Positions 36,400-40,203 of a stretch of 64,000 bases of DNA are shown in pieces. A model generated the notes under the pieces. That model saw only the letters and a list, made by a program, of their open reading frames with translations, was not told the origin of the DNA and ran no database searches. Positions within the stretch are counted from its first letter, which is position 1; the number at the start of each line of letters is the position of its first letter. The position numbers were made by a program, and so were the translations under genes. The stretch is from an uncultured Tateyamaria sp. (GTDB taxonomy: Bacteria > Pseudomonadota > Alphaproteobacteria > Rhodobacterales > Rhodobacteraceae): the NCBI RefSeq assembly GCF_947494755.1, contig NZ_CANLVZ010000001.1, forward strand, positions 186,001 through 250,000, read 5' to 3'.

Positions 36400-36783
36400 T
36401 CAGTCGGCTGAGGGCGTGGGGGCGAGCGTGGCTTGCAGTTTCTTGGGCAGGCTGGCGCGGATGATCTTGTAGGAGGTGAGGATCCTGTCCTGCATTTCGC
36501 TTGCATCCTTGCCGTCAAAGGGGATGCGCACCCAGGAGCGGTGAAAGTATTTTGCTTTGGTCGCCGCTCCGATTTCGATCAGAAACTGGGCGCTGTCCAC
36601 ATCGGCGCATTTCACCGACACTCCGTCATTGGCGATCCCGATGCAGGCGAACATTTTGTCACCCACTTTCCATGCGTCCAATCCACCTTCGTGGTGGCTG
36701 GCCCAGTGTGCGCCGGGCAGGGCGGCGCAGATCATATCGACGGTTTCGCGGCTCATGGGCACAGAGTGGCGCGAAGTGGCCAT
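36400..36783 (-). CDS. MmcQ/YjbR family protein
   Basis: 127 residues from the ATG at 36783; ATG 36804 and ATG 36756 (MSRETVDM) are alternatives and no Shine-Dalgarno decides. YjbR/CyaY-like fold: ALPGAHWASHHEGGLDAWKVGDKMFACIG, then VSVKCADVDSAQFLIE and SWVRIPFDG. Members bind DNA or act in phosphoribosyl-like roles, but the function is not established. Divergent from the cysS leader; the cysS promoter overlaps the upstream edge. Confidence 0.8.
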   Translation of the reverse strand: MATSRHSVPMSRETVDMICAALPGAHWASHHEGGLDAWKVGDKMFACIGIANDGVSVKCADVDSAQFLIEIGAATKAKYFHRSWVRIPFDGKDASEMQDRILTSYKIIRASLPKKLQATLAPTPSAD

Positions 36784-36794
36784 TGAAACAAGCC

Positions 36795-36823
36795 TTGACC
36801 CCAAGTCGTGTCGCGCGCTAGGC
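36795..36823 (+). promoter_or_regulatory. Candidate promoter of the cysS leader
   Basis: TTGACC (36795-36800), a 17-base spacer and CTAGGC (36818-36823). The expected transcription start, about 7 bases after the -10, falls at or next to the leader ATG at 36832, giving a nearly leaderless transcript. The -10 is a weak match. Confidence 0.4.
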
Positions 36824-36831
36824 CTACGCCC

Positions 36832-36873
36832 ATGACCCGGATGATTTGCATTTCCTGCTGCATTATCTGCTGA
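36832..36873 (+). CDS. Cysteine-rich leader peptide of cysS
   Basis: A 13-residue ORF, MTRMICISCCIIC, ending TGA. Four of the last eight codons are TGC (Cys), including a TGC-TGC pair and one just before the stop. It precedes cysS (start 36957) by 83 bases that contain competing stems. No Shine-Dalgarno is present, but the predicted transcription start coincides with the ATG, as in leaderless trpL of rhizobia. Inferred role: a ribosome stalls at Cys codons when charged tRNA-Cys is scarce and changes downstream RNA folding. Too short for ordinary gene callers. No peptide evidence. Confidence 0.62.
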   Translation: MTRMICISCCIIC

Positions 36874-36876
36874 GCA

Positions 36877-36929
36877 TCTCAGCGGGCCGGTTCACTGTTT
36901 TCATAACATCTGAGACTTGATAGGCCCGC
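36877..36929 (+). promoter_or_regulatory. Candidate attenuator with mutually exclusive stems
   Basis: TCTCAG (36877-36882) can pair with CTGAGA (36910-36915), and the adjacent GCGGGCC (36882-36888) with GGCCCGC (36923-36929). The two interlock, so they cannot form together except as a pseudoknot. No T-run follows the second stem, so control could be of translation or rho-dependent rather than classic termination. Confidence 0.5.
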
Positions 36930-36956
36930 GCCAACCTTTGTCGCGCGAGACCCTTC

Positions 36957-38453
36957 ATGTCGATCACCCTCTATAATACCGCCACCCGCCGCAAGGAGCT
37001 TTTCGAGCCCATCGATCCTGCGAATGTGCGCATGTATCTGTGTGGCCCGACGGTCTATGACCGCGCCCATCTAGGCAATGCGCGCCCCGTGCTGGTCTTT
37101 GACGTGCTCAACCGTTTGCTGCGCCACGTTTATGGCGAGGGTGCGGTGACCTATGTGCGCAATTTCACGGATGTGGATGACAAGATCAACGCGACGGCTT
37201 TGGCGCGCCAAAAGGCAGGTTCGGCGGGTACGCTTGAGGAGCTGGTGGCCGAGCGCACGGACGAGACGATCGCTTGGTATCACGCCGACATGGATGCGCT
37301 TGGGGCCTTGCGCCCGGATCACGAACCGCGCGCGACGCAGTATATCGCACAGATGATCGCCATGATCGAAGGGCTGATCGCGGATGACTTCGCCTACGCG
37401 CGCGACGGTCACGTGCTGTTTCGGGTGCGCGCCTACGAGGCTTATGGCGCGCTGTCGGGGCGGTCAGTCGATGACATGATCGCAGGCGCCCGGGTCGAGG
37501 TGGCGCCGTACAAAGAAGACCCGATGGACTTCGTGCTCTGGAAGCCCTCGGACGACGAGCTGCCCGGATGGGACAGCCCATGGGGCCGGGGCCGTCCGGG
37601 CTGGCATATCGAGTGCTCGGCGATGGCCTATGAGCTGTTGGGCAAGTTTGATCCAGAAAAGCGCGGTCGTTTTGACATTCACGGCGGAGGCAACGATTTG
37701 CAGTTTCCGCACCACGAGAATGAGATCGCGCAGAGCAAATGTGCGGGCCACGACTTTGCCAATGTGTGGCTGCACAACGAGATGTTGCAGGTCGAGGGCA
37801 AGAAGATGTCCAAGTCTCTGGGCAATTTCTTCACCGTGCGGGATTTGCTCGATCAGGGGGTGCCGGGTGAGGTGATCCGCTTTGTGATGCTGAGCACGCA
37901 TTACCGCAAGCCGATGGACTGGACCGAGAAGAAACGGGCGGAGGCGGAGGCGACTTTGAGGAAGTGGCGGGAGCACACCAACCACTACCCCCTGGTATTG
38001 GCGGACCAGAGAGCTTGGGATGCGCTGGCTGACGATTTGAATTTGGCTGAAGTGTTTATGCGGATGCACAGCCTATTCGACCAAGGTCATTTTTCCACGC
38101 TTAAAGCTACCGGCCATTTCATCGGGCTTCTCGGCGACGAGATGGGGGATTGGATGCATGAGGATGAACACGAGTACGAATTGATTGCTCAACTCGTTGA
38201 GATCCGAAATCAAGCGCGTTCAGCAAAGGATTTTTCTAAGTCGGATCAAGTTCGTGACGGTTTAAGGGAGATCGGCATTGTTGGACGTGATACAAGTGAG
38301 GGCTTTAAATTTGAGATTGATAGCGGCCCGGCCCACCGGGCGGTCTCTACTGATCTAGTAGCCGAAAATGGTGGGCTGTTTTCATACGGGACTAAACGGC
38401 TTTCCGACTGGCGCTCAAAGAAGCTGAAAAATCTTCTGGAGGCTCTCAAATGA
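36957..38453 (+). CDS. cysS: Cysteinyl-tRNA synthetase
   Basis: 498 residues. Class I synthetase charging tRNA-Cys. HIGH-type motif in [11 protein letters not shown] (31-41) with the zinc Cys29, KMSKS in [10 protein letters not shown] near residue 282, and the [14 protein letters not shown] segment. From about residue 345 (38000 onward) the DNA becomes more AT-rich with codon choices unlike the first 340 codons. The tail ([26 protein letters not shown]) is not the usual one, suggesting recombination of the anticodon-binding domain. Likely controlled by the upstream Cys leader. Confidence 0.96.
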
Positions 38454-38589: not shown

Positions 38590-40203
38590 ATGACCGAACG
38601 CCTCTCCCTCTTCGACACCACCCTGCGTGACGGACAGCAGACCCAAGGCGTGCAATTCTCGACCTCGGACAAGCTGCAGATCGCGCAGGCTCTCGACACG
38701 CTCGGCGTCGACTATATCGAAGGCGGCTGGCCTGGGGCCAACCCGACCGACAGCGCCTTTTTCGACGCTCCGCCGAAAACGCGCGCGACCTTCACCGCCT
38801 TTGGCATGACCAAGCGGGCAGGTATCAGTGCGGAAAACGACGACGTGCTGGCCGCCGTGCTGAATGCGGGCACACCCGGCGTCTGCCTCGTGGGCAAGAC
38901 CCATGATTTTCATGTCAAGACCGCCCTCGGCATCTCGCTGGACGAAAACACCACCAACATCGCGCAATCCTTTGCCCATGTGATCGCGCAAGGGCGGGAG
39001 GCTGTGTTTGATGCCGAACATTTCTTTGATGGATACAAATCCAATCCCGACTACGCACTGCAAGCCGTCCACGCCGCCTATGACGCAGGCGCGCGCTGGA
39101 TTGCGCTCTGTGACACCAATGGCGGCACGCTGCCCCATGACATCCACGACATCACCAAGGCGGTGATCGCCTCGGGCATTTCCGGCGACCGCCTTGGCAT
39201 CCACACGCACAATGACACCGAGAACGCGGTGGCCGGATCGCTGGCGGCGGTCGACGCGGGCGCGCGCCAGATCCAGGGCACGCTCAACGGTCTGGGCGAG
39301 CGCTGCGGCAATGCCAACCTCACGGCTCTGATCCCGATCCTGCTGCTGAAAGAACCCTATGCCAGCCGGTTCGAGACCGGGGTGAGCCTTGAGGCGCTCC
39401 AAGGGCTGACCAAAACCTCGCGCATGCTTGACGATATCCTGAACCGGGTGCCGCAGAAACAGGCGGCGTTCGTGGGGGGATCGGCCTTTGCACACAAGGC
39501 GGGGCTGCATGCCAGCGCGATCCTAAAGGATCCCACCACCTATGAGCATATCGAGCCCGCGCTGGTCGGCAATGCGCGCATCATCCCCATGTCCAATCAG
39601 GCGGGCCAGTCCAATCTGCGCAAACGGCTTGGCGATATGGGGCTGAAGGTCGCGCCAAAGGACCCGGCGCTATCGGTGATCCTTGATCGGATCAAGACGC
39701 GTGAGGCGGATGGTTATAGCTATGACACGGCCCAAGCCTCGTTCGAGCTGCTGGCGCGGGATGCGTTGGGGCTGATGCCGGAGTTCTTCGAGGTCAAGCG
39801 CTACCGCGTCACGATCGAGCGGCGCAAGAACAAGCGCAATCGTATGGTGTCGTTGTCCGAGGCCGTTGTGGTGGTGAAGGTCGATGGGACAAAGATGCTG
39901 TCGGTCAGCGAGTCCATGGACGAACAGGGGACGGATCGTGGCCCCGTTAACGCGCTGTTCAAGGCTTTGGCCAAGGATCTGGGTCGCTATCAGGCCAATG
40001 TGGAGGACATACGGCTGGTGGACTTCAAGGTGCGCATCACTCAAGGCGGCACCGAAGCCGTCACTCGCGTCATCATCGACAGCGAGGACGGTCAGGGGCG
40101 ACGCTGGTCCACGGTCGGCGTGTCGGCCAACATCGTGGACGCGAGTTTCGAGGCCCTGTTGGACGCGATCCGCTGGAAACTGGTGCAGGACGGCGTGGCA
40201 TGA
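38590..40203 (+). CDS. cimA: (R)-citramalate synthase CimA
   Basis: 537 residues. LeuA-type aldolase barrel: LFDTTLRDGQQTQG at the N-terminus with the catalytic Arg-Asp, HTHNDTENAVAG (metal His-x-His) and a C-terminal LeuA-type dimer/regulatory domain (about 400-537). The GWPGANPTD and HKAGLHASAI segments are characteristic of the CimA branch rather than IPMS. It condenses pyruvate and acetyl-CoA for threonine-independent isoleucine synthesis. It is preceded by the strong inverted repeat at 38469 and followed by hairpin copy D. Confidence 0.92.
   Translation: MTERLSLFDTTLRDGQQTQGVQFSTSDKLQIAQALDTLGVDYIEGGWPGANPTDSAFFDAPPKTRATFTAFGMTKRAGISAENDDVLAAVLNAGTPGVCLVGKTHDFHVKTALGISLDENTTNIAQSFAHVIAQGREAVFDAEHFFDGYKSNPDYALQAVHAAYDAGARWIALCDTNGGTLPHDIHDITKAVIASGISGDRLGIHTHNDTENAVAGSLAAVDAGARQIQGTLNGLGERCGNANLTALIPILLLKEPYASRFETGVSLEALQGLTKTSRMLDDILNRVPQKQAAFVGGSAFAHKAGLHASAILKDPTTYEHIEPALVGNARIIPMSNQAGQSNLRKRLGDMGLKVAPKDPALSVILDRIKTREADGYSYDTAQASFELLARDALGLMPEFFEVKRYRVTIERRKNKRNRMVSLSEAVVVVKVDGTKMLSVSESMDEQGTDRGPVNALFKALAKDLGRYQANVEDIRLVDFKVRITQGGTEAVTRVIIDSEDGQGRRWSTVGVSANIVDASFEALLDAIRWKLVQDGVA

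Follow-up and report, generated by a model that had tools for sequence, protein, structure and literature searches.

A cysteine-codon leader ahead of cysS in an uncultured Tateyamaria sp., a member of the candidate attenuator class uORFC-8-2

The leader of the cysteinyl-tRNA synthetase gene cysS in the window, the whole 64-kb stretch of DNA analysed here, is by its sequence a member of uORFC-8-2, an already described candidate attenuator. It is likely that the element is the Rhodobacter-family uORFC-8-2 working as a ribosome-mediated transcription attenuator with charged tRNA-Cys as its signal. This reading is based on the distribution of a conserved upstream open reading frame (uORF), its tandem UGC codons, the spacing of its promoter, the covariation of a stem, P1, and a U-rich tract adjacent to that stem. 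As described in the section on uORFC-8-2 in Brewer et al. (2021, RNA Biol., PMC8632094), the motif is known from 145 examples, all of them in Rhodobacterales and ahead of cysS, and features a conserved AUG, tandem Cys codons that are mostly UGC and usually codons 14-15, a stem holding the Cys codons, a second stem and a terminal U run. The same section proposes that stalling on a shortage of cysteinyl-tRNA allows read-through, which makes the motif a candidate for a ribosome-mediated transcription attenuator. The idea of a first-pass annotation of this DNA, that cysteinyl-tRNA levels control cysS through ribosome stalling, is not novel, as it had been published for Rhodobacterales under uORFC-8-2; leader control of this kind is well supported by comparative sequence. 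The literature searched yielded no other paper naming uORFC-8-2 and no experimental test of it.

The leader uORF and its distribution

36832-36873, + strand: leader uORF MTRMICISCCIIC with a UGA stop, read in the sequence; the peptide is conserved in the genus and family
36957-38453, + strand: cysS, cysteinyl-tRNA synthetase, the gene predicted to be regulated; an open reading frame with homologues in 142 of 149 family genomes

The 13-residue frame with four TGC codons reported at first pass is present in the sequence, and its coordinates are right. It begins with ATG ACC CGG, continues with ATG ATT TGC ATT TCC and ends, after the tandem TGC TGC of codons 9-10, in ATT ATC TGC TGA. The distance from the uORF stop to the cysS ATG is 83 nt. 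Relatives of the window's CysS were taken from the family, from named genome records and from the window's own genus, and the best named relatives are Rhodobacteraceae. The same-genus leaders are almost superimposable (example peptide MTRTICIICCIIC), and the family-wide peptide features a variable start and a strongly Cys/Ile-rich end. Among 81 analysed uORFs, representing roughly one leader per lineage of the family, at least two Cys residues are found in 78 and a Cys-Cys tandem in 61. The codons at the two tandem positions are 55 TGC/6 TGT and 53 TGC/8 TGT, so that UGC is dominant with synonymous UGU exchanges. The alignment upstream of cysS that had been suggested for Cys-codon conservation bears the claim out, as the ORF is kept in the genus and in most family leaders. 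Sequence comparison confirms that the conservation of the leader ORF is more than chance. Besides Cys codons the leader ORF has many Ile codons, and the gene after cysS (38590-40203, + strand) encodes what we take, from its N-terminal sequence, to be a citramalate/isopropylmalate synthase-type enzyme.

A profile built from 66 leaders was used to follow the element across genomes; it is sequence-only, since the MAFFT alignment yielded no pairs. The profile matches 248 of 293 genomes of the order Rhodobacterales, nearly always with one copy per genome. The window's own genome has one copy, and two of the listed order genomes have two matches each. In a class sample of 289 genomes the convincing matches (E below 1e-13) fall only within the same family. 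Weak class-wide matches (E 7.8e-4 to 0.009) were rejected as chance, being low-scoring, partial and scattered over families. The element is dispensable, because about 15% of the order genomes have no profile match. No uORF was found in 23 of 127 unique leaders, a number that is an upper limit because the contigs of L088, L097 and L110 end early and some lineages have diverged. The uORF is absent from several lineages: L038 and L063 (Paracoccus), L036 and L061 (Gemmobacter), L011 and L055. In the two Paracoccus loci the stretch directly before cysS resembles the end of an upstream coding frame. The same-genus leader L131 has no visible Cys-rich uORF and keeps a region, TAGGTCCGCGCCAA, that corresponds to the 3' arm of the stem P3 described below.

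Leader promoter, stems and U-rich tract

36795-36822, + strand: promoter PL of the leader, with -35 TTGACC at 36795-36800 and -10 GCTAGG at 36817-36822, from the family alignment
36833-36840, + strand: P1 5' arm, TGA.CCGG, in uORF codons 1-3, from the minimum free energy (MFE) fold and covariation with the 3' arm
36866-36886, + strand: stop-codon hairpin TCTGCTGAG/CTCAGCGGG, 9 bp with the loop CAT, from the MFE fold and conserved sequence
36882-36888, + strand: P3 5' arm, GCGGGCC, mutually exclusive with the stop-codon hairpin, from sequence and swap tests
36887-36894, + strand: P1 3' arm, CCGG.TCA, which abuts the stop-codon hairpin, from the MFE fold and swap tests
36891-36904, + strand: U-rich tract TTCACTGTTTTCAT, 8 T in 14, from the T frequency profile and the U run of the published consensus
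36923-36929, + strand: P3 3' arm, GGCCCGC, swap test z -6.9

The promoter first proposed, TTGACC (36795-36800) and CTAGGC (36818-36823) separated by 17 nt, is present as noted, and the first T of the -35 box lies 37 nt from the A of the uORF ATG. When 87 family leaders are aligned on this ATG, two boxes stand out, T-T-G-G/A-C from -36 to -32 and G-C/T-T/A-A from -14 to -11, and C occupies -1 in 84%. The GCTA-like box begins 14 or 15 nt before the ATG in most leaders, and no Shine-Dalgarno-like sequence was seen at a fixed place before the ATG in these 87. With a spacing this constant there is hardly any space for a 5' UTR, so the RNA is expected to begin with the A of the ATG. From this promoter geometry, the fixed spacing and the C at -1, we infer that the uORF is very probably leaderless, with the RNA starting at the AUG or no more than one or two bases from it. 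Comparative sequence lends good support to the earlier, predicted placement of the transcription start at the leader ATG. A divergent small ORF (36400-36804, - strand), presumably for a YjbR/MmcQ-type protein, faces away from cysS, and its likely start near 36757 leaves a gap of about 40 nt to the leader promoter.

The MFE fold of the RNA from the ATG to the U tract features P1, which joins the uORF start to the bases before the U tract, and inside it the stop-codon hairpin, whose arms (36866-36874 and 36878-36886) span the last codons and the stop. The window's leader folds modestly better than its shuffles (z -1.65). RNAalifold on the MAFFT alignment of leaders found no pairs; the uORFs differ in length, and this probably throws the P1 arms out of register. 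Partner-swap tests were chosen for this reason. They compare the pairing of a leader's own arms with pairing to the arms of other leaders, over 81 leaders at roughly one per lineage, and their statistics ignore shared ancestry. The P1 duplex has a mean energy of -7.53 kcal/mol versus -4.76 ± 0.22 kcal/mol with swapped partners (z -12.4, 81 leaders), and at least 6 contiguous Watson-Crick pairs are formed in 36 of 81 leaders versus 5.4 expected. Two pairs of segments between which no stem is proposed served as controls, and their z is near 0. The paired leaders have 43 different P1 arm sequences (examples are GAAGAGC/GCTCTTT, GAAGACA/TGTCTTC and TGAACAC/GTGTTCA), which makes one ancestral coincidence unlikely. 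The stop-codon hairpin shows little covariation (z -1.8). Leaders L004, L009 and L026 have an extra GC-rich hairpin (for example GGTCGGGGCCCCCGACC in L026) between the uORF stop and GCGGG.

The stretch from 36891 to 36904 is a probable weak intrinsic termination site. A family-wide T peak is located at the same position, with a mean of 7.2 T in 14. The window's tract is interrupted by CAC and G, and in most relatives it is broken by C, A and G. With just 6-8 bp around a large loop, P1 would make an unusual intrinsic terminator. The first-pass annotation had reported that no terminator T-run was visible. This is right for the bases after GGCCCGC, but the U-rich tract lies between the arms of P3.

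That annotation had also proposed two mutually exclusive stems, one of which holds. GCGGGCC/GGCCCGC (P3) is conserved and covaries, mainly through its outermost pair, where G-C (30 leaders) alternates with C-G (24); replacements by U-A or A-U occur in a handful of leaders (L102, L003 and L020, for example). P3 and the stop-codon hairpin compete for the bases GCGGG, and P3 ends about 27 nt upstream of the cysS start codon. It cannot be the terminator or decide termination at the U tract, because its 3' arm is transcribed after the tract; P3 is formable in read-through RNA only. TCTCAG/CTGAGA is a chance match that is not conserved even in the genus, where its counterparts are mostly TTCTTCA and TCTCAGA or GATCAGA and the longest pairing run is 3-4 bp.

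Candidate internal promoter, proposed mechanism and alternatives

36898-36924, + strand: candidate internal promoter PI, TTTTC at 36898-36902, 16 nt, and GATAGG at 36919-36924

PI has its -35 element within the U tract, overlaps both the tract and the P3 arm, and its -10 is of the same type as that of the leader promoter. As many as 31 other leaders carry the pattern TTTYC-N16-[GC][ACT]TA with a spacer of exactly 16 nt, and other spacings are rare. New here is the evidence for a second promoter in this place, between the U tract and the gene; it would probably give a basal cysS transcript that bypasses the attenuator. The candidate is not universal, because the -10-like GCTA box is lost in some uORF-bearing lineages (e.g. 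L031, L066 and L079).

In the proposed mechanism, ribosomes would load at the 5' end of the RNA without a Shine-Dalgarno sequence, as the fixed promoter spacing suggests. When cysteinyl-tRNA is sufficient, the ribosome would reach the UGA and leave. The freed uORF start could then pair before the U tract to form P1, the stop-codon hairpin would stack on it, and polymerase would tend to terminate at 36891-36904. When cysteinyl-tRNA is scarce, the ribosome would stall at the tandem UGC codons and cover most of the 5' arms, so that neither P1 nor the hairpin would form and polymerase would read into cysS. The freed GCGGGCC of the read-through RNA could pair with the downstream GGCCCGC as P3, and PI would add its transcript past the attenuator. 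Stalling, termination and the effect of cysteine are what we infer from the sequence comparison. A more elaborate form of this mechanism, a two-promoter, two-structure device, is held tentatively: the leaderless start would also be the 5' arm of the terminator, so that initiation and termination compete, and P3 and PI would set the basal and post-terminator output.

It is rather unlikely that the attenuator is a minor layer, with PI making most of the cysS mRNA and the leader only boosting it under starvation. This would fit the presence of the PI pattern at one exact spacing in leaders with and without the uORF (6 of 18 uORF-less leaders versus 0.065 expected by shuffling), but most of the family retains the leader promoter, the uORF and P1, and some lineages, including the three named above, kept the uORF and lost the GCTA box. 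Rho-dependent termination after release from the uORF, with a stalled ribosome shielding the RNA and with no intrinsic terminator, is improbable. The U tract is weak and interrupted, and a role of Rho has been suggested in actinobacterial cys operons whose Cys-codon leaders have no terminator (PMC1262725); however, the strong P1 covariation would be needless for Rho, and the stretch from the uORF stop to the U tract is short and structured. Least probable of all is the translational control considered at first pass, in which stalling would switch between the hairpin and P3 and alter access to the cysS ribosome binding site: the restriction of P3 to read-through RNA, its competition for GCGGG and the imperfect U tract speak for it, but the case is weak because a U-rich tract exists at 36891-36904 with the covarying P1 directly before it, which favours termination, and because P3 ends upstream of the start codon and the cysS Shine-Dalgarno region has no convincing covariation with leader segments (usable z -2.6 to +2.9).

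The attenuator reading, to which Brewer et al. (2021) had come independently, is preferred. Its meaning is that in a whole bacterial family a minimal leaderless leader gene probably serves as the cysteine sensor that regulates cysteinyl-tRNA synthetase. Larger sampling and covariation measured against controls support this family-wide reading here. The proposed leaderless start, the use of the start codon region by P1 and the candidate internal promoter give precise predictions for testing.

Comparison with known systems

T-box leaders of Gram-positive cysS genes bind uncharged tRNA directly, and they resemble the window's element in the regulated gene and the signal. No T-box match was found in the window, where the Rfam gathering thresholds were passed by two tRNAs only.

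The window's element agrees with uORFC-8-2 in its location directly upstream of cysS in Rhodobacterales, with profile matches confined to the same family, and in its AUG and tandem UGC UGC, though the tandem is at codons 9-10, counted from the AUG that fits the promoter, and not at 14-15. It also agrees in having two stems, P1 and the stop-codon hairpin of the MFE fold, when compared with the motif as published in words, and in a U run, here interrupted. The leaderless start, the internal promoter and a stem beyond the U run are not mentioned in the section of PMC8632094 on uORFC-8-2.

In actinobacterial cys/cbs operons the sulfur-metabolism genes are preceded by short ORFs that contain stretches of consecutive Cys codons (PMC1262725). 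These leaders differ from the window's in belonging to another phylum and to biosynthetic operons rather than cysS, and PMC1262725 reports no conserved terminator hairpin for them. In Sinorhizobium meliloti the trpL attenuator RNA (peTrpL/rnTrpL; PMC7298713) carries the AUG of its leader ORF, 14 residues long, at the very 5' end. It is unlike the window's leader in its Trp codons, its trpE(G) operon and its classical attenuator, and no sequence relation is implied; like the window's leader it is an alphaproteobacterial attenuator, and it provides a precedent for a leaderless leader ORF.
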